From Neptunomonas japonica DSM 18939 (GTDB lineage Bacteria > Pseudomonadota > Gammaproteobacteria > Pseudomonadales > Balneatricaceae), in the NCBI RefSeq assembly GCF_000422765.1, contig NZ_AUGR01000009.1, positions 62,001 through 126,000 of the forward strand: 64,000 bases of DNA. Direction: 5' to 3'. Shown one piece after another: positions 12,758 to 32,228 of the stretch (within the stretch, counting starts at the first letter, position 1; the number at the start of each line of letters is the position of its first letter). The translations under genes and the position numbers were made by a program. The notes beneath the pieces were generated by a model, which saw only the letters and a program-made list of their open reading frames with translations, searched no databases and was not told the DNA's origin.

Positions 12758-12792
12758 CCTTGCTCTTTTTAGTTACTAAAGAAAGAGCAAGG
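12758..12792. repeat. Perfect 11-bp inverted repeat over the SypA-like promoter and ribosome site
   Basis: CCTTGCTCTTT (12758-12768) and AAAGAGCAAGG (12782-12792) are exact complements separated by 13 bp. The right arm contains the -12 box of the sigma-54 promoter and the left arm contains the ribosome binding site, so one arm is upstream of the expected start of transcription. Confidence 0.7.
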
Positions 12793-12801
12793 TGCGTGCC
12801 A
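12786..12801 (-). promoter_or_regulatory. Sigma-54 promoter of the SypA-like operon
   Basis: On the minus strand TGGCAC-N5-TTGCT, identical to the sigma-54 consensus including GG at -24 and GC at -12. Transcription would begin near 12774, about 25 bases before ATG 12748. Confidence 0.85.
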
Positions 12802-12872
12802 CTAATTAATCTGTTGATTTTATTAGGTTTTTTTATTGCTTAAAAAATATTCAAAACTATTAATAAGAGCCT

Positions 12873-12885
12873 TCTCATTTTGAGA
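12873..12885. promoter_or_regulatory. Enhancer palindrome TCTCA-N3-TGAGA
   Basis: Perfect 5-3-5 palindrome, 71 bp upstream of the -24 box at 12801. The same motif stands upstream of the other sigma-54 promoters of the window. It resembles the SypG-binding sequence described in V. fischeri (TTCTCA-N3-TG type, recalled from memory). Confidence 0.65.
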
Positions 12886-12929
12886 GACAGAATGAAAGAG
12901 AAGGAGTGAGCCCATTTTATGAATACTCA

Positions 12930-13607
12930 CTATTGCCCTCGGCCAGTGACCATTACAATAACTGTTTGAAAAATGATTTGTAGATCAGAGAATATCCATG
13001 ACCTTAGGTTGCCTAATTGCAGTGCGTAAGCATGATCAAATGCCACTTTATTACGAACATCGTTAAGATCACGGTCATAGCCTTGGTTTACCTGAGCCAG
13101 ACCTGTGATACCTGGCTTAAGCCCCCAAGTGCGCTCCGCAAAGTAGGGGATTGCTGCCTCTAGTTTTTGATAAAAGCCGGGGCGCTCAGGGCGAGGGCCA
13201 ATTAATGACATGTCGCCAACTAATACATTGAACAACTGTGGAAGTTCATCCAAGCGGGTTTTACGCAAAAACCGGCCGAACATAGTCACTCGAGGGTCAT
13301 TCTTTGTCGCCCATACAGCGCCAGATGCAACCTCTGCATCTAACCGCATGGTACGGAATTTATACATCCAAAATATGTCTGTCTTATTTTTATCGGCTTG
13401 TCCGATTCTTAATTGTTGAAAGATAACGGGGCCTGGAGAAGTAAGAAAGATCAGACCAGCAATGATTGGAAACAGTGGTAAACATACACACAGCGCTATG
13501 AAAGAGAGGCTAATGTCCATGATCCTTTTCAAAACAAATACTTTAATAGGAATGTAATTATCCGTGTATTTATAACTTCTTATAAAAGAAAAGTTAAAAG
13601 CATTCAT
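12930..13607 (-). CDS. Polyprenyl-phosphate sugar-1-phosphate transferase (initiating enzyme), SypR/WcaJ-like
   Basis: 225 aa, the short monotopic phosphoglycosyltransferase form. An N-terminal membrane-embedded helix (about residues 25-55) is followed by the bacterial sugar transferase domain: 'SPGPVIFQQLRIG', 'MYKFRTMR', 'RKTRLDELPQL', 'GDMSLIGPRPE', 'KPGITGLAQV'. The D-E pair of 'LDELPQ' is the catalytic dyad of this family. It loads the first sugar phosphate on undecaprenyl phosphate. Last gene of the OmpA-like/Wzz/GT operon, with an ATGA overlap to the GT2 gene. The order Wzz-GT4-GT2-sugar transferase equals sypO-P-Q-R of V. fischeri. Confidence 0.85.
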   Translation of the reverse strand: MNAFNFSFIRSYKYTDNYIPIKVFVLKRIMDISLSFIALCVCLPLFPIIAGLIFLTSPGPVIFQQLRIGQADKNKTDIFWMYKFRTMRLDAEVASGAVWATKNDPRVTMFGRFLRKTRLDELPQLFNVLVGDMSLIGPRPERPGFYQKLEAAIPYFAERTWGLKPGITGLAQVNQGYDRDLNDVRNKVAFDHAYALQLGNLRSWIFSDLQIIFQTVIVMVTGRGQ

Positions 13608-14800
13608 GATGACACCTCCTTACTAGAAACGGGTTTCCAGCAGCCGCGTTCTAAGCCCAGTAAGTAACGCGTAATACCTATTAAACTACTGAAATAGCCA
13701 TTGACGAGATAAAAAATCAAATTGAGTGGGCGTGTGAATTTACTCTTTGAGAGTAACTTTTCTGGTAAAAACAAACTCAGTCTAGCCAGCGTTATGCCAC
13801 TCACTTCGGCTAAGAGTAAGAACAAAAACAGGCTTGATCCATTTGCTAACATTGCACACAAGAATAGCTGTAGCAGTATGATAAAGGGCATGAGTGTGCG
13901 CAGGGCTTTACCTGATAAAAATGCAAAGGCGGTTCCCCCTTGGCGCGGAGATAATAATGCAGGCAGGCGTAATAATTGCTGCATATTGCCTGCCGCTATT
14001 CGAATCCTGCGGCGCTGGTCCATTTCTAAATCCGCTTGCTCCAGCTCTAAAGCTATAATGCTACAGTCGTAAACTGCAGCATAACCGGCAGCAACCATTT
14101 GCATTGGTAGGATAAAATCATCATTAATCGTGTCGGGCTCAAGTGCTTTAAAGAGAGGACGTGAAAAGAAGTACAACGCACCATGAACGCCAATTGGGCT
14201 GCCAATAGCTGCTTCACCTTGTTTAACTTCAATCTGATATTTCCAGTATTTATTTTCACCGGCACTACCAGGGTTCAATAAACGATAGGTTGCAGCTACC
14301 ACCGCAACATCAGAGTTTGAGAAATGTTGATTGGCAATTTTAAGACCATCTATCGATATCAAGGCAGAGGCATCACTTAGCGCAACAATGTCTGTATCAA
14401 GCTGTTCTATCACTTGGTTTAATATTGCAACCTTGCCTTGGTTTTTATCTAAATCTAGAATCTCTATATTGAGCCAGCTATTTTCAGGCTCTTGAGCAAC
14501 TTGGCGAGCAATATCGGCAGTATCATCTTGGCAGCCATCACAGGCAATGATCAGTTTTACTAAATCAGCAGGGTAATCCAGTGCCGCTACATTACGAACC
14601 TTGTCGGCGATAACATCGGCTTCGTTATAAGCGGGTACGAGAATCGTTATGCTTTTAAAATCGATATCTGCTTCTAGGTTGCTTACTGGAGTATGAGCGT
14701 TGCGCTTTTGTATTTTTTTAAGAATCAAAGGGTAGATCACATGATGATAAATAATCAGCAACCAACACAGGACAATTAATAGCAGTAAAGAAAATGACAT
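13604..14800 (-). CDS. Glycosyltransferase family 2, membrane-bound, SypQ-like
   Basis: 398 aa. An N-terminal membrane helix is followed by a GT-A domain (about 50-290): 'ILVPAYNEADVI', acceptor 'CDGCQDDT', 'ALSDASAL', then 'NDDFILP' and 'QRRRI', which match the ED and QxxRW-type motifs of processive GT2 enzymes. Three to four membrane segments follow (about 300-385). Overlaps the downstream sugar-transferase gene by ATGA and starts one base after the upstream GT4 stop. It elongates the repeat unit at the inner membrane; donor sugar unknown. Confidence 0.8.
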   Translation of the reverse strand: MSFSLLLLIVLCWLLIIYHHVIYPLILKKIQKRNAHTPVSNLEADIDFKSITILVPAYNEADVIADKVRNVAALDYPADLVKLIIACDGCQDDTADIARQVAQEPENSWLNIEILDLDKNQGKVAILNQVIEQLDTDIVALSDASALISIDGLKIANQHFSNSDVAVVAATYRLLNPGSAGENKYWKYQIEVKQGEAAIGSPIGVHGALYFFSRPLFKALEPDTINDDFILPMQMVAAGYAAVYDCSIIALELEQADLEMDQRRRIRIAAGNMQQLLRLPALLSPRQGGTAFAFLSGKALRTLMPFIILLQLFLCAMLANGSSLFLFLLLAEVSGITLARLSLFLPEKLLSKSKFTRPLNLIFYLVNGYFSSLIGITRYLLGLERGCWKPVSSKEVSS

Positions 14801-14801
14801 A

Positions 14802-15911
14802 TCACACCTCCAAGGTGGGTTGTGAAGATAAATTGGGCTCTAAAAGTTGAAAGTAAGCTTGTGCCGTTTTAGTCAAATCGCCTTTGCTTAAAACAAACTG
14901 GCGTGGGCTTGTTCGTCGTGAAGATAGACTGTGGTGCAGTAGTGCTTCTTGTAGCTCTTTTATATTTCCAGCAGAGACTGTTATCCCGGTTTTAGGGCAA
15001 ACAATATTTTTGCAACCGCCAACATTAGTAACAATGACGGGCACACCGCAGGCTTGGGCTTCTAGGGGAGATAGCGGTAAACCTTCGTTCAACGAAGGCA
15101 AGCAGAAGAGGTCAATGGCATGATAAAAAGGCACCATATCATTTATGTTTCCAAGAAATGTAACTCGCTCAGCAATGCCTAATTTTTCTGCAAGATCTTC
15201 TAGTGAACTACGTAAGCTTCCATCACCTGCCAGTACTAGATGCACATCAAGGTGAGTTCTACTTAAAGCCTTGAGGAGAAACTTATGGCCTTTAACTGTT
15301 TCAAGGCGTGCAGCGCAACCGACGAGTAATGTTTGCTTAGGTATTTTTAAACGTGCTTTAGCAGACGCTTTTTGTTGCTTAGTTGGCGGTAAGAAATGCT
15401 GAGTATCAACACCATTGAGAATGATTTTGGGGGTTGTGGCAGGAAAATGTTTATTCAGTGCTGTTGCTACTTCTGAACAATCAGCGACTAACATCGGCTT
15501 TAACAAGTAGATCAGGGTGCGTTGAAGCCTTTTATTACTTTTCTTATTCAAGTGCCATGCATCATGTTCAGTATGAACATGTTTAAGTTTAAGGTATTTA
15601 GCCGCCATACCTGCGTATAAAAAAGGGCCTATGTGATGGCTATGTACTGAGCTTGCTTTAAGGTGTATTAGTCTGCGAATTAGCCGTTGTACTAGTGTTA
15701 GGTCTAGGCCGGCGGATTTGTCAAAAAAGTGCAGTCGGTGTGCTGTTTCGGCTAATCTTGGCCACTGCTTGATGGCAGATGCTTTATCTCCTTCAAGGCT
15801 GAAAATATGCACTTCTGCTTGTGAGTCTAGCTGCTTAAGTAAGTCTAATGCCATGGTTTCAATGCCACCAGGGCGTAGATGTTGTACGACTTGTACAATC
15901 ACTTTATTCAT
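14802..15911 (-). CDS. Glycosyltransferase family 4, SypP-like
   Basis: 369 aa, GT-B fold. N-terminal 'LRPGGIETMALDLL' is the acceptor-side motif; C-terminal Rossmann part has 'LNGVDTQHF', 'GCAARLETVKGHKFLL', 'LAGDGSLRSSLE' and the nucleotide-sugar loop 'NEGLPLSPLEAQACGVPVI' with the E-x7-E pattern of GT4. Overlaps the Wzz-like gene by 8 bp. Adds one sugar of the repeat unit from the cytoplasmic side. Confidence 0.8.
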   Translation of the reverse strand: MNKVIVQVVQHLRPGGIETMALDLLKQLDSQAEVHIFSLEGDKASAIKQWPRLAETAHRLHFFDKSAGLDLTLVQRLIRRLIHLKASSVHSHHIGPFLYAGMAAKYLKLKHVHTEHDAWHLNKKSNKRLQRTLIYLLKPMLVADCSEVATALNKHFPATTPKIILNGVDTQHFLPPTKQQKASAKARLKIPKQTLLVGCAARLETVKGHKFLLKALSRTHLDVHLVLAGDGSLRSSLEDLAEKLGIAERVTFLGNINDMVPFYHAIDLFCLPSLNEGLPLSPLEAQACGVPVIVTNVGGCKNIVCPKTGITVSAGNIKELQEALLHHSLSSRRTSPRQFVLSKGDLTKTAQAYFQLLEPNLSSQPTLEV

Positions 15912-17400
15912 AGGTTGGCTCCTTCTCTGTAGTATTGAGAGAATGATGAGAAAAAGGGGGGATGCGTGCTAAAACGGGTACATTAAGCATCGCGACAACG
16001 GTGTCTTTACGACGAATACTGGTATCGAGCAGTTCAGCAATGGTCGCCAGACCTATGCCTAAACCAATGCCTGCAATACTTCCGGCTATCACGAAAATAA
16101 TAAGTGGCATATTGATGGGGCCAAGTGGATCAAAAGGTGGGTCGATCAACTTTACGCGTTCGTGTTCTTCATTCTTGCCTAGCGAGCGTGTTACTCGTGC
16201 CATTTCATGACGCTCCGCAAGGTTCTCAAATACTTTTTGGCGTACTTGAATATCGCGCTCTAACTCTTTTAAGCGGCGCTCATGTTGCCCATAGCCATTA
16301 ACTTGCTGCTGCATACGATCAATTTCGGCTTGCAGTGACTTCACCTCGTTCATAAGGCGCTCGATATGATCATTCGCTTTTTGTAGGCGTTCTAATTGAG
16401 AGATGAGCAGTGGGTGCTTGTTATTACTTTGGTGTGTTTCTTGGCTCATAGTGGCAATAGCCCATAAGCGTTCTAGTTTCACGTTATCTAGGCTACCGCT
16501 ATTAAGAGAGTTCATTTCCATAAGAATGCGGCTGCGCTCTTTTTCCAACGAGCCTAAGCGAGCACGAATACTTTGAACTTGGCTATGTTCATCGGTATAG
16601 CGGGCCCGAAGCTGGGTGAGTTGCGCCATTTCATTGATAATGGACTCTTCAATTTTCCCTACCACAGGATTGGTTTGTGATAAGCGTAACGCGAGACTGG
16701 CCTGAGCCGCCTTTGCACCTTCCAGCTCAATGCTACGTTCAGCTAAGTAGGCTTTAAGCACGGATAAGCGCGCAACATTGGCTCCATGTAGCGCGGGGAG
16801 TTCACTCGCATATTTATTTTTATACTCAGCCAGTGTTTGTTCGGCATCTTGTAAGTTGGAGCGTCTTGCTTCCATTTCACCTGCAAGAAAGTTTTCAGAC
16901 TGCAATACAGATGAGCGCTGTGGTGCAAGTACGCGCTCCACAAAGTGCATGCTAATCATAGAAAGGGTTTCTTTGATTTTTAGGGAAGATCCTGCGCGAT
17001 AAGTGATCTTTATAAGGTTATCGCCGACAAGTTTTGCATTAAGTGCTTTTGAAAGGTCGGCAATGACATTGGCTTTGCTCTGCTCATCCATCTCGTCATT
17101 GAGCAAATTCATTTTCCAGGCAACACTGGCAAGGATATGTCGGCTATGGAGTAATGCATTGAGTGCTTCCATGCGGTTACGCAGGTTCGTTGCAATGGAT
17201 AGGTCTTCAAGAAAAGGGTTATGCTCTGATGCTTCTTGAAACAAAATAGTTGTGGTTGTTTCGTATTTTTTAGGTGATAAAGCACCAACAGTAAGCCCGA
17301 CAAAAGGCATCAATAAAATCGGAAGCATGATTAGATAACGACGACGCCATGCTGCCCATAAAATGGAAGCAATGTTCTTTATCAATAGGCTTCTAATCAT
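15904..17400 (-). CDS. Wzz-like chain-length regulator/co-polymerase, SypO-like
   Basis: 498 aa. An N-terminal membrane helix ('YLIMLPILLMPFVGLTVGAL') and Wzz-type segment to about residue 120 are followed by a long periplasmic coiled coil (about 180-420, many Glu, Arg, Gln heptads) and a second membrane helix (about 440-462, 'NMPLIIFVIAGSIAGIGLGI') with the Pro-rich entry 'PFDPLGPINMP' typical of co-polymerases. No kinase domain is attached; the SypD-like protein at 9197 is the candidate cytoplasmic partner. Second gene of the sigma-54 operon at 17948. Confidence 0.8.
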   Translation of the reverse strand: MIRSLLIKNIASILWAAWRRRYLIMLPILLMPFVGLTVGALSPKKYETTTTILFQEASEHNPFLEDLSIATNLRNRMEALNALLHSRHILASVAWKMNLLNDEMDEQSKANVIADLSKALNAKLVGDNLIKITYRAGSSLKIKETLSMISMHFVERVLAPQRSSVLQSENFLAGEMEARRSNLQDAEQTLAEYKNKYASELPALHGANVARLSVLKAYLAERSIELEGAKAAQASLALRLSQTNPVVGKIEESIINEMAQLTQLRARYTDEHSQVQSIRARLGSLEKERSRILMEMNSLNSGSLDNVKLERLWAIATMSQETHQSNNKHPLLISQLERLQKANDHIERLMNEVKSLQAEIDRMQQQVNGYGQHERRLKELERDIQVRQKVFENLAERHEMARVTRSLGKNEEHERVKLIDPPFDPLGPINMPLIIFVIAGSIAGIGLGIGLATIAELLDTSIRRKDTVVAMLNVPVLARIPPFSHHSLNTTEKEPTYE

Positions 17401-17424
17401 AAGTTTCTCTCTTGCGCTGTGTTG

Positions 17425-17907
17425 TTACTGTGAGATCTGTACACGGTCAGCCTGCAATTCAGGCTGCATAGAGATATTTGTTTTACGTGTACGTTTGCTA
17501 AGAAAGTCACTGACATGTTTGCAACGAGAAATGGCAAGAGATGCTGCAGTAAAAGGATCACTTAACCCACCGGGAGCACAAGCAACACTGACGGGTGTAT
17601 TAGCGAGGTTGGCAAAACGATGTAGCTGGTCTTCTTGTGTTGGTGTTAGGCGAGAAATTTTTCCAGAAAATGAGAGTGTTAATTCGTTTTGGTCGCTTTG
17701 AGAAGACGACTGTTGAGTAGTCTTACCGTTTCGAGCTTGGGCAAGAAGCTGCTCAACACTCATTGGCTTATGGCCATTGTTAGTTACTGCTTGGGGTTGA
17801 TTTATACCTAGTGAGGACAGGTTTATGTTGCTTAAAGATGTGGCGCAACCTGATAGCAGTCCGAGTGAGCTTAAAATGATTGAGTAACTTATCCAGGCCC
17901 TTTTCAT
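17425..17907 (-). CDS. OmpA-like lipoprotein, possibly SypB-like
   Basis: 160 aa. The signal peptide ends in lipobox 'LLSGC', Cys about residue 21. After a Ser/Gln-rich linker the last 75 residues look like a reduced OmpA-type peptidoglycan-binding domain: 'LTLSFSGKISRLTPTQEDQLHRFA', then 'AASLAISRCKHVSDFLSKR', corresponding to the helix that carries the conserved Arg. First gene after the sigma-54 promoter at 17948-17963, 24 bp before the Wzz-like gene. In V. fischeri SypB is also described as an OmpA-like protein; the equivalence is inference. Confidence 0.6.
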   Translation of the reverse strand: MKRAWISYSIILSSLGLLSGCATSLSNINLSSLGINQPQAVTNNGHKPMSVEQLLAQARNGKTTQQSSSQSDQNELTLSFSGKISRLTPTQEDQLHRFANLANTPVSVACAPGGLSDPFTAASLAISRCKHVSDFLSKRTRKTNISMQPELQADRVQISQ

Positions 17908-17947: not shown

Positions 17948-17963
17948 AGCAGGGATTGGGCCA
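17948..17963 (-). promoter_or_regulatory. Sigma-54 promoter of the OmpA-like/Wzz operon
   Basis: On the minus strand TGGCCC-N5-CTGCT with GG and GC ten bases apart. The start of transcription would lie near 17937, 30 bases before the ATG at 17907. It would drive five genes down to 12930. Confidence 0.7.
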
Positions 17964-18081: not shown

Positions 18082-18094
18082 TCGCAATTTGAGA
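18082..18094. promoter_or_regulatory. Enhancer palindrome variant TCGCA-N3-TGAGA
   Basis: One arm differs by one base from the TCTCA-N3-TGAGA copies. It lies 118 bp upstream of the -24 box at 17963. Confidence 0.5.
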
Positions 18095-18199: not shown

Positions 18200-18757
18200 T
18201 TATAAGTTGTAATGCTGCTTGAATTTCATCATTAGCGCTTCAGGCTTATACTTTTTATTTTGCTTGTTCAGTACATAAACCACGGTTTGCTTGTCAGGGC
18301 CTGTACCGATATCCGTATAACGGTAGGGTGCCTCACCAATCATACGCATGGCTTTCATATCTTCTAAGCTATCGAAAACATATAAACGGCCATCCTCAGC
18401 ACGGATTTCACCGTAAAATGGATCGGCTGCTTGTAATGATCCTTTAAACATCTCTTCTGCTGCTACGCCGCTTAGCTTCTTCTTATCAACGCCGCGCAGG
18501 CCGTAAACCAGTGTTTGTCCATTTGGACCACCGCCAATGAGCACTTTACGGTACGATGTTTCACCGACAGTCAGGAACTCTTGATAGACCTTAAAATCAT
18601 CAAAAACATAGTAACGGCCTTCATGAGATACTTCATAAAGATCTTGGTTATTAATCTCTGGAGCTGTAGCGACGTTATCCTTCACGCTAGTCGATTGGCA
18701 ACCATACAAGCTCAGTAGTGCTGCGACCGTCATCATTCCTGCAAACTGTTTTTTCAT
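18200..18757 (-). CDS. Lipoprotein with two tandem copies of an unknown ~60-residue repeat
   Basis: 185 aa. Signal peptide with lipobox 'LYGC' (Cys near residue 20). Two repeats follow. The first, about residues 40-95, has 'EGRYYVFDDFKVYQEF', 'ETSYRKVLIGGGPNGQTLVYGL'; the second, about 115-175, has 'DGRLYVFDSLEDMKAM', 'EAPYRYTDIGTGPDKQTVVYVL'. Shared pattern: YVFD-x5-10-(E)xxYR-x3-IG-x-GP-x2-QT-(L/V)VY-x-L. No named family recognised. No sigma-54 promoter found; the gene stands alone between two polysaccharide operons, so a link to the polysaccharide is only positional. Confidence 0.7.
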   Translation of the reverse strand: MKKQFAGMMTVAALLSLYGCQSTSVKDNVATAPEINNQDLYEVSHEGRYYVFDDFKVYQEFLTVGETSYRKVLIGGGPNGQTLVYGLRGVDKKKLSGVAAEEMFKGSLQAADPFYGEIRAEDGRLYVFDSLEDMKAMRMIGEAPYRYTDIGTGPDKQTVVYVLNKQNKKYKPEALMMKFKQHYNL

Positions 18758-18809
18758 TTCTGCCTCACAAGCATTGTTTCAACGTAATCACAGCACCATA
18801 GCGGCAGAA

Positions 18810-18829
18810 TATGACAGAATCATGTCATA
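18810..18829. promoter_or_regulatory. Perfect 7-6-7 palindrome upstream of the repeat lipoprotein
   Basis: TATGACA (18810-18816), six bases, TGTCATA (18823-18829). It overlaps the stop of the upstream glycosyltransferase gene and lies 53 bp before the lipoprotein ATG. Fits an operator; a terminator is unlikely since no T-run follows. Confidence 0.4.
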
Positions 18830-19958
18830 AAGATTGCAGTATATCTTTGAGTAACCTAGCTTGTTTGCTCCAACTTTCTTTGCTGAGGCGCTGTTGCCTC
18901 ATGCGTATGAATTGCTGGCTGTTTGACTGGTAAGAATGTTCAATCGCTTGTGCAAAGCCCCCCGCATCATTGCGAATGTCGATAAGATCCCTGTAACCAT
19001 CCAATGCAGGAAAATCGCTACTAACAACTGCAGAGCCTGCGGCTAAATACTCCCTTAGTTTTAAAGGGTTGCATGCCTCAATTTGGCGATTGTGCAAAAA
19101 CGGCAGCAAACCGACATCCCAATGTTGGCTATACCGAGGCAGTTCATGATGGGGCTTTGGCCCTAACCATTGAATGTTAGGTTCTTTCAATAACCCTTCT
19201 ATGTTGCAGCTTGCAGGGCCTATAAGTACAAACGTCCAGTGCGGCAAGTGGCGGGCTGTATCAATCATTAGGGCTTGATCAAACCATCTGGCGATTGATC
19301 CATAAAAACCAGCGACAGGGCCAATAGGTAGGTCAGTTGCACGTTCCGTAGGTGTTGAAAAGAGTTCGGTATCAACACCGTGGGGAAGAACGATTGTTTT
19401 TTGTGAAGGGAATTTCTCAGCGAGCTTGTTACTGGCAGTAATGATCAAGGTGCTCTTAATGACGAGCTCTTGCTCCATCTGTTGAATTGGCTGGTGGTCA
19501 ACGCCATCCAATGCCGAGAAATCATCACCGCAGTAGTAGATAGTAGCGCGTTCACCTAATCTGCCGACAACATCAACCGCTGACGGTAATGATGTCCAGA
19601 GTAATGGGCGCTGCTTGTTTTGTTTGAGCAAGGGTTTTAATTGCTGCGTAAGAATTGTCTGATTAATACGACGTGCTATTTGGCTTGCAGGCCAAGGTAT
19701 GGTGCAGGGCTGTAAAATTGAAGGCTGTGGCCCTTGTCGGTTATCTTGAGTAGATTCAGAAGAAAACGGGGTATGTAAAAGAGCGGTTAATTTATTCCAT
19801 ACTCTATGCATATCCCGTTGAGTGAATCTAGGCTTACGTAGCCCTAGGGAGTTCACCCAGAGGATCTCCTGCTCCGGGATTAGATGCTTAATTAAGTGTT
19901 GCGTACTGCTAGGGTGCCCGCCCCAGTCTTCGCCAAAAACCAACATATCAATATTCAT
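18825..19958 (-). CDS. Glycosyltransferase, GT-B fold (GT4-like), exopolysaccharide locus
   Basis: 377 aa. C-terminal half has the donor-binding signature: 'VLPHGVDTELF', 'PVAGFYGSIARWFD', 'FVLIGPASCNIEGL', 'NIQWLGPKPHHELP', and 'ACNPLKLREYLAAGSAVVSSD' with the conserved Lys/Glu. The N-terminal half starts 'MLVFGEDWGGHPSS', as in this type of teichuronic acid or capsule transferases. Start forms an ATGA overlap (19955-19958) with the acyltransferase upstream. Corresponds in role to one of SypH/I/J/N; which one cannot be told. Confidence 0.75.
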   Translation of the reverse strand: MNIDMLVFGEDWGGHPSSTQHLIKHLIPEQEILWVNSLGLRKPRFTQRDMHRVWNKLTALLHTPFSSESTQDNRQGPQPSILQPCTIPWPASQIARRINQTILTQQLKPLLKQNKQRPLLWTSLPSAVDVVGRLGERATIYYCGDDFSALDGVDHQPIQQMEQELVIKSTLIITASNKLAEKFPSQKTIVLPHGVDTELFSTPTERATDLPIGPVAGFYGSIARWFDQALMIDTARHLPHWTFVLIGPASCNIEGLLKEPNIQWLGPKPHHELPRYSQHWDVGLLPFLHNRQIEACNPLKLREYLAAGSAVVSSDFPALDGYRDLIDIRNDAGGFAQAIEHSYQSNSQQFIRMRQQRLSKESWSKQARLLKDILQSL

Positions 19959-20737
19959 GCGGCGTTCTCCGTGCTATGAGTACTCGCATGTGAACTGCTT
20001 TGAGGAGTATTAGGCGAAGTGCTGGTGGACGTATCGAGGGGTTTAATAATTTTTGCGGGTACGCCCGCGGCCAAAACAAAAGCAGGGAGGTTATGTGTTA
20101 CAACACTACCGGCAGCAACAATGGTGCCTGTGCCAATGGTGACACCTTTCATAACCGAAACGCCTGAACCGAGCCATACATCCTTTTCAAGAATAATATC
20201 GCCCACCTGGTCATCGCTTTCAGGTAACCCTTTAGCACGTGCAACAGGGTCAAGTGGGTGGCCGGGGTAACCCGCTAAAAAACCACGTCCGGCAATACGT
20301 ACATTATCGCCAATAATAACGTGTTGCCCAACAGCAATGGTGGTTTGCCAGCCGATACCGACGTTGTTTCCTATTGTTAGTTGGGGTGTTTGTTTGCTGC
20401 TCCAACGCCCCGAAAAAGTGGTTTGTCCCGAGATGCGACAATCATTACCTACCTCTATATCAAGGTTACCTTGAACAAGAGGCATGCCGCCATAAAGATA
20501 CAGATGCTTACTGTGGTTGCTTAGGCGTGTTTTAAAAAGAGGTGTCCAATAGAGCACGCGTGTTAGCGAGCTCAATAGATGGCAGATAAGCGTATGTAAA
20601 ATCAGAATAGGCTTGTAAATAAGCTTAACAGAAGGAACTTCGAAATTTTTAGCCCTAAGGTGCAGTTGTTTTATCAACTTAGCTAGTGGGTGGCTAGAGG
20701 TTTTTACCCATCGTTTGAGTGTTTGTAACGTATTCAT
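19955..20737 (-). CDS. Acyltransferase with left-handed beta-helix (hexapeptide repeats), SypM-like
   Basis: 260 aa. After about 100 residues with a hydrophobic stretch (LILHTLICHLLSSLTRVLYW), hexapeptide repeats run from about 100 to 235: 'VGNDCRISGQTTFSG', 'IGNNVGIGWQTTIAVG', 'VIIGDNVRIAGRG', then 'ILEKDVWLGSGVSVMKG', 'TIGTGTIVAAGSVVTHN', 'PAFVLAAGVPAKII', the usual end of the LacA/CysE acetyltransferase class. The tail is Ser/Thr/His-rich. It probably adds acetyl groups to the polysaccharide. First gene of an operon with its own sigma-54 promoter at 20782. Confidence 0.8.
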   Translation of the reverse strand: MNTLQTLKRWVKTSSHPLAKLIKQLHLRAKNFEVPSVKLIYKPILILHTLICHLLSSLTRVLYWTPLFKTRLSNHSKHLYLYGGMPLVQGNLDIEVGNDCRISGQTTFSGRWSSKQTPQLTIGNNVGIGWQTTIAVGQHVIIGDNVRIAGRGFLAGYPGHPLDPVARAKGLPESDDQVGDIILEKDVWLGSGVSVMKGVTIGTGTIVAAGSVVTHNLPAFVLAAGVPAKIIKPLDTSTSTSPNTPQSSSHASTHSTENAA

Positions 20738-20781: not shown

Positions 20782-20797
20782 TGCAGAAGCTGTGCCA
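20782..20797 (-). promoter_or_regulatory. Sigma-54 promoter of the acyltransferase operon
   Basis: On the minus strand TGGCAC-N5-CTGCA: exact -24 half and one change in the -12 half. Expected start near 20771, 34 bases before ATG 20737. Confidence 0.8.
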
Positions 20798-20857: not shown

Positions 20858-20870
20858 TCGCATTTTGCGA
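20858..20870. promoter_or_regulatory. Enhancer palindrome variant TCGCA-N3-TGCGA
   Basis: Perfect 5-3-5 palindrome with G/C at the third and eleventh positions in place of T/A, 60 bp upstream of the -24 box at 20797. Confidence 0.55.
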
Positions 20871-21787: not shown

Positions 21788-21801
21788 GTTATGCACAAAT
21801 T

Positions 21802-24180: not shown

Positions 24181-24235
24181 AGTAAGCTGATTCTTATTTT
24201 TTTGCGTTAGCACCCTTGGTTTTATTGGGAAATAT

Positions 24236-25651: not shown

Positions 25652-27022
25652 TTATAGCCTGATTATTTTTGTCTGTTGAGATAACGCGATAGCAAGCGCC
25701 AATAGAATGTAGATCGGCCAGGTAAAGCCCATTGTGAGAAAAGTCGCCGACACACAAAAGCCAGCGAGACCAGCCTGAACCGCTTGTGCGCATGCGTATA
25801 GCGTAGGTGAGTAGTGCTGCTGTATAGGTATTTGTGGTCTTAAGCGGTTAATACTGGTGTAGCTAATACGGGCAATCATAATAATCATGGTGGTAAATAA
25901 CATCAGGCCTAGAATACCGGTTTCGGCTAATACTCCAAACCAGGTGCTATGTACGGCGTGATTTTGACCGTCCCAGTGCGGGCTATATTCAAAATAGTTC
26001 GAGATAAAATTGTTGATGCCAACGCCCAGCAACGGATGGTGTAGAGCCATTCCCATCGCGGCCTGCCAAGCATAAATACGGCCCATGGCTGATTCATCAA
26101 TGCCTGCTTCTTGAGCGCCGCCTGAAGCACGATCACTAACGCCGGCTAAGGCAAAAAGCACCATGAGCGCCACTAGTCCTAAGCTGATTAATAGTGCTTT
26201 ATTTTTGACTCGACGCCATGCAAAAATTCCGGTGACAGCACAACTACCTAACAAGCCTCCACGGCTCTGTGTTGCAATAATTGCGCATACGATCGTAATA
26301 AAGCCGACTAACCCAAACAATTTCCAAAATTTACTTAAACCAGGCGTTAGAAACATCGCTAATGTGAAGCTGGCAGGAAACAGCAGTACTAACGATAGAT
26401 CATTAGGATCACCGAGCATTGAGCCAATATTGCGGCCAATAGTAACGCGGGTTCCTTCAACTAAGCCAATACCAGCATTTTTATTGTAAAGCGCTACAAC
26501 CGCAAGGCTAATACCGCAGACCGCCATACTGACTAAAAGCCCTTTAAATTGACGCTCTTTTTGCAGTAACCAGCTAATAGCCAGCACCATAGTGGCTATT
26601 TTTATATAGGTTCCATTTAACGAACTCATTGCTGCTCCGCGATTTGTCGCAAACAATGCGCCAATAACAACGAGCAAAAAGAAGCAGCTAAATACAGACA
26701 TTTCACGACACCAAAAAACATTAATGCGTTGTGTGATTAAGTTAACCAGTAAAGAGCCGAGAGTTCCCACTGCGAGTAGCTGAGGGATTTTAAGGGAATA
26801 AAGCGTTGGAAATACTTCATGCAAACGGAAAAATGAGAAGGCAATAAAAGCAAGGCAAAGCAAAAAGGGCATTTGTAACCCAGCAATGAGCAGTAAAGGC
26901 AGTAACGCAATGGCTGCAAGCGCAGGGTGTGGCAGTTGGTACCAAGTAAGCCCGATCATCAACACAGATATGAGTGCAATCAGTACTTGCTGCCAGCGGT
27001 TGATGATAAGGATATTATTCAT
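25652..27022 (-). CDS. O-antigen ligase/polymerase (Wzy) family protein, SypL-like
   Basis: 456 aa from ATG 27022 (a TTG at 27037 is also open). About 11-12 membrane segments with a large periplasmic loop near residues 300-375 carrying the Wzy_C signature: 'GRIYAWQAAMGMALHHPLLGVGINNF' and 'HAVHSTWFGVLAETGILGLMLF', including the conserved His and Arg. Polymerises repeat units in the periplasm. Follows the flippase gene by 11 bp; third gene of the DUF4114-Wzx-Wzy operon. Confidence 0.8.
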   Translation of the reverse strand: MNNILIINRWQQVLIALISVLMIGLTWYQLPHPALAAIALLPLLLIAGLQMPFLLCLAFIAFSFFRLHEVFPTLYSLKIPQLLAVGTLGSLLVNLITQRINVFWCREMSVFSCFFLLVVIGALFATNRGAAMSSLNGTYIKIATMVLAISWLLQKERQFKGLLVSMAVCGISLAVVALYNKNAGIGLVEGTRVTIGRNIGSMLGDPNDLSLVLLFPASFTLAMFLTPGLSKFWKLFGLVGFITIVCAIIATQSRGGLLGSCAVTGIFAWRRVKNKALLISLGLVALMVLFALAGVSDRASGGAQEAGIDESAMGRIYAWQAAMGMALHHPLLGVGINNFISNYFEYSPHWDGQNHAVHSTWFGVLAETGILGLMLFTTMIIMIARISYTSINRLRPQIPIQQHYSPTLYACAQAVQAGLAGFCVSATFLTMGFTWPIYILLALAIALSQQTKIIRL

Positions 27023-27033
27023 CAGTATCTTGC

Positions 27034-28479
27034 TCAATGCTTACTAGGGTGAGCCCGGTAAAAACGTTGTAACCAAGGCAAGGGTAAAGGGTTGAGCAAC
27101 GCGGCTACACCGGCAAAGCTGAGCATGATAACCAGTATTTGAATAGCCGTATCTATGCTGATAGGCGCTGAAGGTAATAGATAAATGCAAACAAGCATGC
27201 ATGCCGTTAGCAGTAGAAGTGATCTTAGTTGATAAGGGAGTTTTAAGGCGTGTTGGCTAATATAGTAGATGGCCGCTAAACGCAGACTGAGCGCTATGCT
27301 TGTTGCCAAAATTGCACCCCATGCGTAAAAGAGTGGAATCAGGACAAGGTAGCCGACTAATGCGATACCCGCCGCTGTGCCATCAACTAGCGCGGGGCGA
27401 ATGGTTGAGTCTTTGCTCATTGACCCAAAGCCAAGTGTTGATGTGGCATTGTGTAAAGCGGCAAGGCCAGCCAACCAAGGTATGTATTGAATAGCACCAT
27501 GGTAAGAGGAGGGCGTTAGCAAGCGTACTAATGTTGGCCCGATTGCTGTGATGATTAATGCTGACGCCATCGCAATAATGACACCTATGGTGGCGATATC
27601 TGCACAGCGTTTAAGGCCATTTACTTCTTTTAAACAGCTAAAGCGCTTTGCATGCCACCAAAGATCAAATGGCTGTACAAGAACAGCGGTAATTAAGCCG
27701 AACTTGGCCGCAATGGCGTATTGGGCCATTTCGGCTGTGCCAACCACGCTCGCCAGAATCCAACGATCAAAACTACCTAATACGAACCCCGCGATACCCA
27801 CAAAAATAAGCGGACCGCCATAGATCGAATACATTTTAAAACGAGCAAACTCAAAGCGAATGCCGGTAGTGTGGATCTGCTTTTTTATCAGCCATGCGCA
27901 TAGAACGATAGCCGAGAGTAGTGTGGCACAAAGAACGCCCATGACCCCAAATCCTAAAAATAGGAGAGGGATGGCAATAGCCACTTGCAAGGCAACTCGT
28001 CCTGCGGTGCCGGCAAAATAAGTCCATGGGCTGCCCTGCATGCGTAACCAAGCCAGTGGTACAAGAATAGTTCCGACAAGCGACAGGCTAGCAAGAATTA
28101 AGCGTGCTTCGGTTTCTTGTATATTGCCGGGTAACCACTGGCTGACTTGGGGGGCAATCAACTGACCAATGATGAGTGCAGTTGTCCCCACAACAATGGC
28201 CATACCGAATATATTTGCCACGGCTTGCTTCTGTTCTTGTTCATTATCTGCGCTGCCAGCAAAGCGGAAGAGGGTTTCAGCCAAACCCATGCCGATAACA
28301 ATGCTGAGTAAGTCTGCAAGCGTTTGAAGTACATCTAGCCGTCCATAATCTTCTGGCGTAAGAAAGTGTGTAGCTACGGGCACCATCACCAGTGCAAAGC
28401 CTTTAGATAATGCTAGCGCAGAAGCATATATAAGGCTGTGTTGCACCGCTTGTGGAAGCTTTGCAATACGGTTAATCAT
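27034..28479 (-). CDS. Polysaccharide flippase (Wzx/MATE-like), SypK-like
   Basis: 481 aa from ATG 28479, an ATGA overlap with the stop of the DUF4114 gene. Twelve to fourteen membrane segments; 'SLIYASALALSKGFALVMVPVATHFLTPEDYGRLDVL' at the N-terminus is the standard opening of polysaccharide_synt family flippases. Moves lipid-linked repeat units across the inner membrane, upstream of the polymerase at 25652. Confidence 0.85.
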   Translation of the reverse strand: MINRIAKLPQAVQHSLIYASALALSKGFALVMVPVATHFLTPEDYGRLDVLQTLADLLSIVIGMGLAETLFRFAGSADNEQEQKQAVANIFGMAIVVGTTALIIGQLIAPQVSQWLPGNIQETEARLILASLSLVGTILVPLAWLRMQGSPWTYFAGTAGRVALQVAIAIPLLFLGFGVMGVLCATLLSAIVLCAWLIKKQIHTTGIRFEFARFKMYSIYGGPLIFVGIAGFVLGSFDRWILASVVGTAEMAQYAIAAKFGLITAVLVQPFDLWWHAKRFSCLKEVNGLKRCADIATIGVIIAMASALIITAIGPTLVRLLTPSSYHGAIQYIPWLAGLAALHNATSTLGFGSMSKDSTIRPALVDGTAAGIALVGYLVLIPLFYAWGAILATSIALSLRLAAIYYISQHALKLPYQLRSLLLLTACMLVCIYLLPSAPISIDTAIQILVIMLSFAGVAALLNPLPLPWLQRFYRAHPSKH

Positions 28480-29465
28480 GACAAGCAATCTCCTTTGTCT
28501 GAGCGAGACTGCTGGCGGCGTAAAAATACCAGTGCACCCAATGTCAGCATGATGCCACCAGGTAGTCCAGTACCCATGCTAGGAGCAGGAGCGGCTTGTA
28601 AGCTAATAACTGATCCAGACGTAGGTACATCTGCAAACAATGCCTCTACTGGGTCGGTTCTTATACGAAATACAGCATCATTAAAATCATTATCACCTTG
28701 TGGCCTTACTAGATCTTCGAAGCCGAGAATGAGTTCATTTTCACCCGAAAGAGAGGTCATCATGGCCACATGACGTGAGTTGATATCAACATTATCCATG
28801 GTAGCTGATGCATTGTTTTCAGGATTAAGGAGATCAATAGTGTACATAGCAAGTGGATCAGCATTGTTATCCCAGCCTTTAACTTCTCTACCTGTCCATG
28901 CGTTTTGTAGTAAGAAGAAGCCAACATTGGTGCCTTCCGTAAATACTGAACCACCTGTCATGTTATAGTCAGTGCCATTAATATCGGTGATTTCAGTACC
29001 TAGTAAACCTACCGTATCTCCCGCAATTAATGAGCCGCCACCTCCAAGTTCTGATACATTATTAAAAACCATGCCTGTTTCAATTCCATCGATGGCTTGT
29101 AGCTCGTTAATGCCGATGTGTCCTGAACCATTCAGATCAAGATCACCGAAAGTTGATCCATCAAAGGCATTATCAGTAAAGGTGAAATAACCTAACGAGT
29201 TTCTGTAACCGGCCCCCTCATCAAGAAAAGTGACGCTCATATGAGCATCGCTTTGCAGTGTTATATTGGGGTTATATTCCAAGCTTAAATACTCTTTGTT
29301 GGCAACAACGCTCTCTGGTAATGCTTGCTGAACCTCTTGCAGTAATGCGGGGTCAAGATCAACATTGACCAGTGTGTCAGTTGCATCGGTAGCGGCATGC
29401 AGTAGGTCGGCACTGAGCAACAAGCTTAAACTCATGAGTGTTTTTTTATTAATTGGTGTTTTCAT
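28476..29465 (-). CDS. Secreted DUF4114 protein with C-terminal sorting-like tail
   Basis: 329 aa from ATG 29465, preceded by GGGAG; the frame is open further upstream without a good start. Signal peptide about 1-24, ending 'LLHA'. An EF-hand/dockerin-like loop 'DLDLNGSGHIGINEL' lies near residue 125. A DUF4114-type end of the ectodomain ('LGFEDLVRPQGDNDFNDAVFRI') lies near 255-275. The last 40 residues are tripartite: short 'APAPS' motif, hydrophobic helix 'GGIMLTLGALVFL' and 'RRQQSR', the layout of PEP-CTERM-like sorting signals. An exosortase-like protein is encoded 0.6 kb upstream in the adjacent operon. Shares transcription with Wzx and Wzy. Confidence 0.75.
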   Translation of the reverse strand: MKTPINKKTLMSLSLLLSADLLHAATDATDTLVNVDLDPALLQEVQQALPESVVANKEYLSLEYNPNITLQSDAHMSVTFLDEGAGYRNSLGYFTFTDNAFDGSTFGDLDLNGSGHIGINELQAIDGIETGMVFNNVSELGGGGSLIAGDTVGLLGTEITDINGTDYNMTGGSVFTEGTNVGFFLLQNAWTGREVKGWDNNADPLAMYTIDLLNPENNASATMDNVDINSRHVAMMTSLSGENELILGFEDLVRPQGDNDFNDAVFRIRTDPVEALFADVPTSGSVISLQAAPAPSMGTGLPGGIMLTLGALVFLRRQQSRSDKGDCLS

Positions 29466-29496: not shown

Positions 29497-29512
29497 AGCA
29501 AGAAACGAACCA
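29497..29512 (-). promoter_or_regulatory. Sigma-54 promoter of the DUF4114-Wzx-Wzy operon
   Basis: On the minus strand TGGTTC-N5-TTGCT; GG and GC are ten bases apart, -12 half exact, -24 half with two changes. Expected start near 29486, 21 bases before ATG 29465. Confidence 0.65.
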
Positions 29513-29557: not shown

Positions 29558-29570
29558 TCTCATAATGAGA
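29558..29570. promoter_or_regulatory. Enhancer palindrome TCTCA-N3-TGAGA
   Basis: Perfect 5-3-5 palindrome 45 bp upstream of the -24 box at 29512, in the short gap before the next gene's end (29583). Confidence 0.65.
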
Positions 29571-29582: not shown

Positions 29583-30101
29583 TTAATCAGATGTTTTCGC
29601 ATTTTGAGAAGCATCAGCAACGAGAGAGGCTGCGATGTTGCAGGTGCCTTTTTCGGCAAATGCTTGGGGATGTGGCGTAGCGTTTGACTCACGCGAAGAG
29701 GACGATAGCAATAACTGAAACTTATCAATGACGCGTTGCACAGTGAACTCCCACTGTGGGAAGCGTGAATAAATCCTGCCATTAAAAATCACACCGTATG
29801 ACATTTCATCGTCATTAATGATGGCTTTTAAAATATGGCTACCTTCTGCGTTTCGGTACAAAGTAAGCAGCGCGATACTACCTGCACAAAGGCGGTGTTG
29901 GTAACCGCGAATCTTATAGGGGCCTTGGTTAGCCGCTTGTATTGAACCAATGTCGATCAAGTCAGGATAACTAATAGCTGATATAGATAATGGCTGCTCT
30001 ACTGCTGGCCTGACGGTGGATTGATGTTTATAGATACGGCTAGCCGGTGCTAGCAATACGGCAGGTACTAATATAAAAAACACGGGGAGGTATTTTTTCA
30101 T
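29583..30101 (-). CDS. Unrecognised periplasmic partner of the exosortase-like protein
   Basis: 172 aa from ATG 30101, an ATGA overlap with the exosortase-like gene. An N-terminal membrane anchor/signal (KKYLPVFFILVPAVLLAP) is followed by a soluble domain with 'KIRGYQHRLCAGSIALLTLYRNAEGSHIL', 'YGVIFNGRIYSRFPQWEFTVQRVIDKF'. In many exosortase systems an EpsI-type periplasmic domain is fused to or follows the protease; this protein occupies that place, but similarity to EpsI could not be established by eye. Translational coupling implies a shared function. Confidence 0.55.
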   Translation of the reverse strand: MKKYLPVFFILVPAVLLAPASRIYKHQSTVRPAVEQPLSISAISYPDLIDIGSIQAANQGPYKIRGYQHRLCAGSIALLTLYRNAEGSHILKAIINDDEMSYGVIFNGRIYSRFPQWEFTVQRVIDKFQLLLSSSSRESNATPHPQAFAEKGTCNIAASLVADASQNAKTSD

Positions 30102-30925
30102 GACTTTTTCCATTTCACACAAGTCAGTGTCAGTAGCAATGTAATGGCTTCGATAAAGTCAGCTCCGTCACCTTCATGCAGCTGCAGATACCACTGTTCA
30201 TCAAGTGCCATTAATGAAAGTCTAATACTGTTAATGCTTAATATCAGAACAACAACACAAACAATGCGAAGGTAAGCACGAGTCGTGATTGTGTGATGTA
30301 AGTAAGTCGTTAAACTAAACCAAAGCAACATTGCCCAAGACAGGTTCCCTAAGGCTGAGCAGCCCGTCAGTATGAGTAAGCTATGACCACTTTCTTGGGT
30401 GATAAGGTTATTTTCTACAATGGCGTCAGGCGTTAATATTTGTAGAAAAATACCGCTAAACCAAGCATCAAAGTTAAGAATCTCATTCGAAAATAAACTG
30501 AGCAGTAGCTGGCAAACAGGGCTGCGAATTGATATCGCAAATAAAATGAGAACGGCAGACCTTTCTAAGATAGTGTGCTTACCATCTTGCCCACAAATCT
30601 GCTTAAGCCAAATGCCGCAACAAAGTGAGCACAAAACCCAACTGAGTGTTGCGTTAGGTAACACCATTAAGGTGCTAATAAGTGTTGCATATAGCAAGAA
30701 CCCGCGCGGTTGTGCTCTGTACTTTATTTGAGTGTTAGATAACAAGAATGCTGATAGAAACAGGCTAAACCATAAAACATAACTTTGGCCAAACCCGCTA
30801 CTTGCCGCCACCAACAACGGTTCGTTTAAGCTTTGCATAATGGCAGGCAAAAGAGCGTTGATGACTGCCATTAATGTGAGAACGGGCAGTAGCAAGCGCT
30901 TTGGATTAGCTTGCGGCATCATCAT
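30098..30925 (-). CDS. Exosortase-like transmembrane cysteine protease/transpeptidase
   Basis: 275 aa from ATG 30925, an ATGA overlap with the upstream glycosyltransferase. About eight membrane segments. It has the catalytic triad layout of exosortases: Cys189 in 'LTGCSALGNL', Arg235 in 'INSIRLSLMA', and His250 in 'WYLQLHEGDG', each at the end of a membrane segment facing the periplasm. In the family, the enzyme cleaves C-terminal sorting signals of secreted proteins in bacteria that make exopolysaccharide. The gene lies in the polysaccharide locus between a GT4 gene and its small partner, and the DUF4114 protein is the likely substrate. Overall sequence is divergent, so the subfamily is unassigned. 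Confidence 0.7.
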   Translation of the reverse strand: MMMPQANPKRLLLPVLTLMAVINALLPAIMQSLNEPLLVAASSGFGQSYVLWFSLFLSAFLLSNTQIKYRAQPRGFLLYATLISTLMVLPNATLSWVLCSLCCGIWLKQICGQDGKHTILERSAVLILFAISIRSPVCQLLLSLFSNEILNFDAWFSGIFLQILTPDAIVENNLITQESGHSLLILTGCSALGNLSWAMLLWFSLTTYLHHTITTRAYLRIVCVVVLILSINSIRLSLMALDEQWYLQLHEGDGADFIEAITLLLTLTCVKWKKS

Positions 30926-31968
30926 AATGAGTGATGCCTTGTGTGTGGCGATTGTTTGTTTACTTTTGGGAGGGCTCTTTGGTAAATGTCCACGATGCGT
31001 GGGCAAACGACATCATCAGTATAGTGTTGTTTTATATGGTCACTCGCCGCAACAGAGAGCGTTGTTTGCTGTGTGGTATTAAGCAATAACCACTCAGCAA
31101 TGGCTTGCTGGTACGCATCCTCATCTCCCGGCGAGATTAACCAGCCATTTTTGTGGTGAGTAATAAGTTGAGGCAGCCCACCAATGGCATAGCTAATAAC
31201 AGGAATACCTCGGGACATGGCTTCTAGTGCGACTAACGGAAGTCCTTCGGATTCGCTGGTAATGCAAAGCAAACCAATATCTTTCCAAAAGGCATCCATA
31301 TTGACTAAACCATGGCATTTAATATGCGGGTATTGAGTGAATTTGCTGCGTAAAGGTCCGTCGCCGTAGATATGAAAACCATGTAGGCTTGATATCCCTT
31401 GTGTAATACGAGCAAAGCTCTCAGGACCTTTTTCTTGCGAAAGACGACCAACAAAAGCAATCTGTTTTCCGTGTTTAGCTGTCAGCGGCTGCTCTTTTAC
31501 AAAGTTGTTTACTTGAGTTGAAGGGGAGGGGATCCGTTTATCTATTTCAGCACTAACGCTTAAATTTTGATTGGCAAGTCTTGAGGTTTGTAGATCTAAC
31601 CAGCTATAAATACGTACCTTGCCATTACCCAGGTCACCAGCATGAAAAGTAGATACAACCGGCACTCCCGCAAAATATGACAAGCTGCGACCGAGTACGC
31701 CTGCTTTATAGCCATGAGTGGTGACCAGTGAAGGTTGTTGTTTAATGATAGGTAGCAAATCAGAAGGCTTTTCTAAGTAGCGCCATCGTAACCCTAATAA
31801 AGATAACTGTTCTGCCAGAAGGTTGTCTGCGTAGCGCTTTAAGAACAGTACTTCGTTATTAAAACCATTACGCTCCAGCCAGCAAGATAATAGAAATACG
31901 TGTGTTTCAATTCCCCCACTGCCGCGACTATCGATAAGTTGATAAATGTTTCTTTGTTGTAATTTCAT
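30922..31968 (-). CDS. Glycosyltransferase family 4, exopolysaccharide locus
   Basis: 348 aa, GT-B fold: 'IDSRGSGGIETHVFLLSCWL' at the N-terminus, 'HGYKAGVLGR', then 'IAFVGRLSQEKGPESFARI', 'HIYGDGPLRSKF' and 'ESEGLPLVALEAMSRGIPVISY' with the E-x7-E motif. First gene of the operon GT4-exosortase-partner, with its own sigma-54 promoter at 32005. Donor and acceptor unknown. Confidence 0.8.
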   Translation of the reverse strand: MKLQQRNIYQLIDSRGSGGIETHVFLLSCWLERNGFNNEVLFLKRYADNLLAEQLSLLGLRWRYLEKPSDLLPIIKQQPSLVTTHGYKAGVLGRSLSYFAGVPVVSTFHAGDLGNGKVRIYSWLDLQTSRLANQNLSVSAEIDKRIPSPSTQVNNFVKEQPLTAKHGKQIAFVGRLSQEKGPESFARITQGISSLHGFHIYGDGPLRSKFTQYPHIKCHGLVNMDAFWKDIGLLCITSESEGLPLVALEAMSRGIPVISYAIGGLPQLITHHKNGWLISPGDEDAYQQAIAEWLLLNTTQQTTLSVAASDHIKQHYTDDVVCPRIVDIYQRALPKVNKQSPHTRHHSL

Positions 31969-32004
31969 ACTTGGCCTCTATGTGCTCTTTTATTCTTATA
32001 AGGG

Positions 32005-32020
32005 AGCAAATATGCAGCCA
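32005..32020 (-). promoter_or_regulatory. Sigma-54 promoter of the GT4-exosortase operon
   Basis: On the minus strand TGGCTG-N5-TTGCT, with GG and GC ten bases apart. Expected start near 31993, 25 bases before ATG 31968. Confidence 0.7.
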
Positions 32021-32137
32021 CTAAATATAATTTCTTTTTAAAACAGGCAATTAAATAAGTTATATAATCTAAAATATTAATAAAATAATCCACTTCTCTG
32101 TTAAATACTCACTTTTTACTAAAAACAACAAAGCGGC

Positions 32138-32150
32138 TCTCAATATGAGA
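32138..32150. promoter_or_regulatory. Enhancer palindrome TCTCA-N3-TGAGA shared by two divergent promoters
   Basis: Perfect 5-3-5 palindrome placed 62 bp upstream of the rightward -24 box (32213) and 117 bp upstream of the leftward one (32020). One activator site could therefore serve both operons. Confidence 0.7.
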
Positions 32151-32212
32151 CTCGATATGAAAAAGTAGAGAATTCTATGTTTATAGATCGTTGATTTTAA
32201 AGAGATAAAAGT

Positions 32213-32228
32213 TGGCAGACGTTTTGCT
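32213..32228 (+). promoter_or_regulatory. Sigma-54 promoter of the epimerase gene
   Basis: TGGCAG-N5-TTGCT, one change from consensus. Expected start near 32240, followed by AAGGAG and ATG 32263. Confidence 0.8.

Follow-up and report, generated by a model that had tools for sequence, protein, structure and literature searches.

What ties together the polysaccharide genes that are spread over several units in this 64-kb stretch of Neptunomonas japonica DSM 18939 (positions 62,001 to 126,000 of contig NZ_AUGR01000009.1; "the window" below means the whole 64,000 nucleotides analyzed), and can a single regulator control them? A sequence-only reading had pointed to six sigma-54 promoters accompanied by copies of a short palindrome, TC(T/G)CA-N3-TG(A/C)GA, and had assigned control of all six units to a regulator gene at 6111. 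Our follow-up makes it very probable that the locus is a Syp-type exopolysaccharide regulon, in which a SypG-like activator acting on the palindromes drives the six sigma-54 units, along with a kinase/SypE/SypA circuit that the earlier reading had not included. The promoters, the palindromes, their pairing, conservation and co-occurrence, and the domain architectures of the proteins are there to be read in the DNA, beginning with the following elements.

12786..12801, minus strand: sigma-54 promoter of unit 1 (sypA), TGGCACGCACCTTGCT
12873..12885, no strand: palindrome 1, TCTCATTTTGAGA
17948..17963, minus strand: sigma-54 promoter of unit 2
18082..18094, no strand: palindrome 2, TCGCAATTTGAGA
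20782..20797, minus strand: sigma-54 promoter of unit 3
20858..20870, no strand: palindrome 3, TCGCATTTTGCGA
29497..29512, minus strand: sigma-54 promoter of unit 4
29558..29570, no strand: palindrome 4a, TCTCATAATGAGA
29597..29609, no strand: palindrome 4b, TCGCATTTTGAGA, within the 3' end of the exosortase-partner gene
32005..32020, minus strand: sigma-54 promoter of unit 5 (exosortase unit)
32138..32150, no strand: palindrome 5, TCTCAATATGAGA, common to two divergent promoters (units 5 and 6)
32213..32228, plus strand: sigma-54 promoter of unit 6

All six -24/-12 elements, described earlier as GG and GC ten bases apart, are present as TGG-N10-GC, each at the position given above, and those at the window palindromes score 18–22 of 22. 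Counted from the C of the GC box, the ATG follows the expected transcript start by 21, 30, 34, 21, 26 and 24 bp in units 1 to 6, which reproduces the range of 21–34 bases first proposed. The distances from palindrome to -24 box, 71, 118, 60, 45, 117 and 62 bp in the same order, likewise span the proposed 45–118 bp at all six promoters. The five palindromes of the sequence-only reading were all recovered, although its list was incomplete, as a sixth copy (4b) lies 39 bp upstream of 4a at the same unit 4 promoter, an arrangement found with identical double spacing in a relative (L042).

The pattern TCKCANNNTGMGA has 6 matches in the window against 0.17 expected, a number reached by none of 100 shuffles, and the spacer is A/T-only in all six. 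A strict sigma-54 element lies 40–135 bp from every one of the six palindromes versus 7.4% of random positions; this pairing amounts to about five independent events, two of the six sites having one promoter in common. Because strict elements number 52 in the window versus 23.4 in plain shuffles, most of them away from any palindrome, they carry weight only when paired with one. One-mismatch palindromes at 7869 and 35633 of the window were discarded for having no sigma-54 element. Over the whole genome (4.39 Mb) there are 13 palindromes, 6 of them in a 19-kb stretch of the window, and the reversed-pattern control gives 7; with an A/T-only spacer the figures are 7 sites versus 2. The palindrome is thus not equally frequent elsewhere in the genome, an outcome that had been named as fatal to the proposal. 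The seven copies outside the window were rejected as regulon members, as none has an element scoring above 17.5 of 22; five of them fall within open reading frames (ORFs) of at least 100 amino acids, and two (L011 and L012) lie outside such ORFs.

If the palindrome is an activator site, which protein reads it? Three genes of the window bear on this question.

6111..7577, minus strand: SypG/LuxO-like sigma-54 activator with receiver, AAA+ and Fis-type helix-turn-helix domains; predicted palindrome reader
7672..9213, plus strand: SypE-architecture protein (HATPase_c_2, receiver, SpoIIE/PP2C phosphatase), divergent from the activator gene
12428..12754, minus strand: STAS-domain SypA-like protein, first gene of unit 1, from domain matches

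As judged from their sequences, the architectures of the three products match those of SypG, SypE and SypA of the syp system. The best NCBIfam match of the activator is LuxO (NF041946), with 634 bits, under the cut-off of 800, and the next-best match to that model in the genome reaches 367 bits; the closest solved chain by sequence is also LuxO (5ep0). As a Vibrio control, 369 genomes of the class were scored with the LuxO model; none exceeded its cut-off, and Vibrio sites were taken from a published paper. The recognition helix of the activator reads ISAATIYRKR, and the predicted target of its helix-turn-helix domain is TCKCAWWWTGMGA. The SypA-like protein has a DSSG(I/V)GA motif that is kept in relatives. 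The 94-bp gap that separates the SypG-like gene of the window from the SypE-like gene contains no palindrome, so that control of the regulator by itself is unsupported here; a metagenome-assembled genome (MAG) of Rhodospirillales has one palindrome upstream of its SypG-like gene (L061).

The kinase of such a circuit would be a hybrid protein with PAS domains, HisKA, HATPase, two receivers and HPt, which adjoins the sypG-like gene in the three loci examined (L030, L032 and L036). Its SypF-like orthologue in the N. japonica genome (G000:C7:22736-25489; 937 bits versus 275 for the next protein) lies 42.6 kb from the regulator, beyond the window. A gene for a receiver-HD-domain protein precedes it, the two together spanning G000:C7:21416-25498 (equivalent to L107:6416-10498), and the same pair stands beside sypG in L030.

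Another sigma-54 activator could read the palindrome instead, for example PrsR of the canonical PEP-CTERM system. About 19 proteins of the genome match the AAA+ activator domain, a true PrsR is encoded at G000:C13:8863 (691.5 bits), and, according to the available part of PMC1569441, a motif precedes the sigma-54 site of PrsR-linked PEP-CTERM genes by about 63 bp. Against this, the same part of that source derives the PrsR-side motif from a TTTACA seed, unlike the palindrome, and across 116 family genomes the motif counts follow SypG and SypE, whose genes are adjacent in 14/14 family relatives. The activator at 6111 itself reaches 347–360 bits with the PrsR model TIGR02915, under its cut-off of 502.6. 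We regard reading by PrsR or another such activator as very unlikely.

The distribution behind this argument is as follows. A SypE-like protein is encoded in 15 of the 116 family genomes (N. japonica included; 1 of 8 in its genus), with a SypG-like gene adjoining it in all 14 relatives. Motif copies per genome average 5.2 in the 15 SypE-positive genomes, 3.0 in 13 with a SypG-like protein and no SypE, and 0.98 in the 88 with neither (Mann-Whitney versus the rest, p 6e-8 for SypE-positive and 9e-5 for SypG-only genomes; reversed control for the first contrast, p 0.29). Together with pairing and conservation, the way in which motif counts track SypG-like and SypE proteins lends in silico support to the earlier proposal that the regulator at 6111 controls all six units, its binding being predicted.

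Conservation was scanned as presence of the palindrome within 450 bp upstream of orthologous genes. Of 18 genomes, 15 have an exact copy at the sypA promoter and all 18 have a copy with at most one mismatch; an added 19th genome (G461) also has one mismatch. It was found in 9/9 genomes, window included, both at the OmpA-like gene promoter and in the divergent GT4/epimerase region, and upstream of the DUF4114 gene in 6/8. For the acetyltransferase unit, placing the first gene by homology gave 7/7 relatives plus the window (8/8), which supersedes a first count of 9/9 whose gene starts had been set by eye near palindromes already seen; in G114 this unit has no placeable start, although its acetyltransferase gene, read across L045 and L044, is preceded by a palindrome at a distance of about 150 bp. 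Shuffled upstream regions contain the exact palindrome in 0–0.3% of cases. Rows were left out where a contig ended (G036 at sypA) or, elsewhere, where a contig ended or no gene match existed, as for G112 at the OmpA-like gene (L047 has a palindrome there) and G068 (no DUF4114 match). Moreover, 445 kb from 14 relatives contain 42 A/T-spacer sites, compared with an average of 0.36 for 59 permuted palindromes, the most frequent of these (7 matches) being one that overlaps with the real motif. Of the 42 sites, 35 have a strict sigma-54 element, versus 8.8% of random positions.

Position is conserved as well. Among the 15 family genomes, the sypA palindrome is 71–75 bp from the -24 box in 12 and 61 bp from it in two; the distance is 51–74 bp at the acetyltransferase unit, 61–65 bp on the epimerase side of the divergent region and 106–128 bp on its other side, and looser, 84–174 bp, at the OmpA-like gene. 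These figures bear on the idea that the palindrome is the operator of some other factor, such as the MarR-type protein at 5550–5987, and lies upstream of sigma-54 promoters by chance. It is a perfect short palindrome, and the MarR-type ORF, recognized by sequence reading, is adjacent; nevertheless a place 45–174 bp upstream of the -24 box, tight at three promoters, suits an enhancer better, and the sequence of the half-sites varies with the recognition helix of SypG (see below), which makes an unrelated operator very unlikely.

A further alternative is that an island spread recently and that the sites look conserved merely through common ancestry, without being under selection. The spread is indeed patchy, as the counts for family and genus given above show, yet the SypE-like proteins have diverged to 44–56% identity among relatives, whereas the 13-bp motif has stayed, at the same place, with variable spacer bases. 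In addition, unit 3 begins with a SIS-domain gene in six relatives; the window and G108 lack this gene there, yet palindrome and promoter are retained. Descent without selection is, on these grounds, highly improbable.

Returning to a SypG-driven regulon, several observations weigh against it. The hybrid kinase is unlinked to the locus in this genome; the sypA sigma-54 element is weak and not convincing in G037; the palindrome is absent upstream of the DUF4114 gene in 2/8 genomes, and in G108 it is present there with no sigma-54 element nearby. G002 and G107, in which neither protein was detected (the latter 86% complete and with an exosortase fragment), have 5 and 6 motif copies, and G036, which is SypE-positive and 71% complete, has none. 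Only 3 of the 6 window palindromes match the published SypG site exactly, the others being close variants. Finally, a looser sigma-54 pattern, present at 40/42 of the relatives' sites, was dropped, since 40% of random positions also have one nearby.

Among named genomes, the family members in the scan belong to Amphritea, Aliamphritea, Neptuniibacter, Pontibacterium, Marinobacterium and the Osedax symbiont Rs2. The module is also present in Bowmanella sp. JS7-9 (with an exosortase, L062) and in the Rhodospirillales MAG, and in a class-wide sample 3 of 368 other genomes match SypE with an E value of at most 1e-60. Neptuniibacter caesariensis MED92 (L053 and L034/L035) is a culturable relative that has the locus. 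Two genomes of another genus have pairs of palindromes 22 bp apart (G047:C1:2309760-2309794 and G048:C5:70842-70876), the first distant from the SypG-like gene and the second on a different contig from it; no good sigma-54 element was found at the G048 pair (L128).

What would be switched on by the six promoters? Apart from the genes already listed and those of the exosortase set, the units contain the following.

9197..9940, minus strand: tyrosine-autokinase-like ATPase of the export machinery, sypA unit (TIGR01007, below cut-off)
9964..12060, minus strand: polysaccharide export protein with repeated domains, sypA unit (TIGR03027, 201.9 bits, cut-off 180)
12051..12431, minus strand: small lipoprotein-like protein, sypA unit (no family match; homologues in relatives)
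12930..17907, minus strand: unit 2, OmpA-like lipoprotein, Wzz chain-length protein, GT4, GT2 and sugar-phosphate transferase
18200..20737, minus strand: unit 3, hexapeptide acetyltransferase, glycosyltransferase and 185-amino-acid lipoprotein-like protein
25652..28488, minus strand: distal genes of unit 4, O-antigen-ligase-like protein and flippase (TIGR03097, 141.7 bits, cut-off 188.1)
30922..31968, minus strand: glycosyltransferase, first gene of unit 5 (family match)
32263..33186, plus strand: unit 6, nucleoside-diphosphate-sugar epimerase-like protein (named by sequence reading)

The OmpA-like lipoprotein of unit 2, which we take to resemble SypB, had no family match in profile searches. 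About 4.6 kb (20989–25604) of genes with no evident link to the system part unit 3 from the ligase gene, among them genes for a DUF2750 protein and, by sequence reading, for an intradiol-dioxygenase-like protein and a transporter of the DMT type. Several relatives have the ligase gene near unit 3.

Three further genes, of units 4 and 5, set the locus apart.

28476..29465, minus strand: DUF4114 protein with a sorting-signal-like tail, first gene of unit 4
29583..30101, minus strand: small exported protein, partner of the exosortase; the two form a single ORF in two relatives (L039:11582-13111 and L042:12441-13898)
30098..31006, minus strand: divergent exosortase-like membrane protein of 302 amino acids with invariant Cys/Arg/His

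C216, R262 and H277 of the exosortase-like protein are invariant in 7 sequences. It reaches 31.5 bits with PF09721 in a six-frame search (cut-off 25.7), a domain scan having given no Pfam match, and 20.0 bits with TIGR04178 (cut-off 23), a model with which two of four relatives reach 23.2. Its structure model is helical (predicted local distance difference test score, pLDDT, 69.7) and had no match in the PDB at E 0.001 or better; the model of the partner has a pLDDT of 64.7. The DUF4114 tail consists of a QAAPxPxxG-like sequence, a hydrophobic stretch and, in most copies, basic residues, and the protein is a likely substrate of the exosortase. Its ATG at 29465 lies past the promoter; a TTG start of the ORF at 29513 would overlap it. 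The exosortase was found in 14 of the 116 family genomes, 12 of them with SypE, leaving 3 SypE-positive genomes lacking it and 2 SypE-negative genomes that have it (Fisher p 6e-12). The N. japonica genome also encodes a canonical EpsH-type protein (241.7 bits), in addition to the PrsR mentioned above, and has 14 PEP-CTERM matches over the cut-off of a short model, a cut-off also exceeded in 2 of 14 control genomes; this canonical EpsH/PEP-CTERM/PrsR system is located at G000:C6:209492, C13:8863 and 14 further places. Because such a set exists elsewhere in the genome, the exosortase of the locus looks like a second, separately regulated one.

How would the circuit work? From the sequences and the precedent of syp we infer binding, phosphorelay, a SypE-SypA switch and DUF4114 sorting. 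The phosphorylated SypG-like regulator (6111–7577) would bind TC(T/G)CA-WWW-TG(A/C)GA 45–118 bp upstream of the six sigma-54 promoters, activating as a block the export, chain-length, glycosyltransferase, acetyltransferase, flippase and ligase genes plus the exosortase and its DUF4114 substrate. The SypF-like hybrid kinase, 42.6 kb away, probably passes phosphate to both the SypG-like and the SypE-like protein. The latter would act now as kinase, now as phosphatase, of the STAS protein SypA, thus providing a second brake that is post-transcriptional. The available text of PMC4517449 has SypF acting on SypG and SypE, and SypE acting on Ser56 of SypA.

The half-sites offer a further view of regulator and site. 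Published sites are TTCTCANNNTGMDWN for SypG and TTGCAWWWTGCAA for LuxO, as given in the accessible portion of PMC10162802. We compared 19 genomes whose SypG-like regulators have an S-x-A-T recognition helix with 20 genomes with other helices, nearly all S-x-S-T, leaving half-site positions 2 and 3 free; sites were found in 18 and 8 genomes, respectively. At S-x-A-T loci TCGCA (63) and TCTCA (44) make up 107 of 126 half-sites, versus TTGCA (12), TCGCA (9) and no TCTCA among 24 half-sites at the other loci. The contrast in TCTCA (44/126 versus 0/24) was put to a Fisher test, the rows sharing ancestry and the values thus not being independent. G014 and G140 partly break the pattern. All this fits a recognition helix that sets the half-site, for groups that share ancestry and with few sites in the second (8/20 genomes). 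Distant SypG-like regulators lie near TTGCA/TCGCA-type palindromes at sigma-54 elements in L110, L111, L112, L114, L117, L125 and L131. The SypG site itself reportedly goes back to Ray 2013, and SypG of V. fischeri is predicted to belong with the S-x-A-T helices.

Is such a locus new? Compared by architecture, it is like syp of Vibrio (Aliivibrio) fischeri, the slime system of its squid symbiosis, in having a LuxO-like sigma-54 regulator, a HATPase-receiver-PP2C protein, a STAS protein and a hybrid kinase with HPt, several operons for one polysaccharide and an upstream TCTCA-N3-TGM-type site. It differs in having six promoters as against the four operons of syp (available sections of PMC8941931), an unlinked kinase, a strict palindrome that also allows TCGCA, and a regulon to which a divergent exosortase, its partner and a DUF4114 protein are added. 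Control by a SypG orthologue is shared with scv of V. parahaemolyticus and rbd of V. vulnificus, two species described as lacking SypE in the portion of PMC4517449 at hand. The same sections of PMC8941931 present ScvE as the SypG orthologue that activates transcription, report horizontal spread of scv loci and scv/syp loci from 28 genera, Oceanospirillales and Rhodospirillales included, and name Bowmanella sp. JS7-9; ScvC, ScvL and ScvO served as queries in that work, and the likeness of the present locus to them is one of gene type; exosortase, PEP-CTERM and DUF4114 do not occur in the main text of that paper, and our literature search, which had most subscription journals outside it, found no paper joining SypG or SypE with an exosortase.

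XrtA/PEP-CTERM systems with PrsK/PrsR resemble the locus in their exosortase, polysaccharide genes, sorted-protein tail and sigma-54 promoters with an enhancer-like motif (as far as covered by the available parts of PMC9850573 and PMC1569441), whereas here the regulator is SypG/LuxO-like, not PrsR, and the exosortase is far from EpsH. LuxO is the closest curated family and the closest solved chain, with equal half-site spacing, but the regulator falls under the family cut-off and its half-site is TC(T/G)CA instead of TTGCA. The locus is, then, a Syp/Scv-type polysaccharide regulon of a kind already known; the exosortase cargo and the strictly palindromic site are what is new.

For the family, which includes records titled Osedax symbiont, the result maps a whole Syp-type regulon outside Vibrio in testable form, and ties an exosortase to SypG control. 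With two exosortase sets and two candidate sigma-54 activators in one cell, a single strain could show what separates them. Tentatively, and with some doubt, we suggest that a new, dedicated exosortase subtype, with its partner and DUF4114 substrate, attaches a matrix protein, or releases it, in concert with the Syp-type polysaccharide, and that the S-x-A-T class of SypG-like regulators reads TC(T/G)CA and the S-x-S-T class TTGCA/TCGCA. If so, a single helix residue may decide whether a regulator uses the promoters of Syp-type or of LuxO-type networks, and the helix/half-site pattern would offer a one-residue handle on the sharing or avoidance of promoters by SypG and LuxO, a question posed in the accessible portion of PMC10162802.

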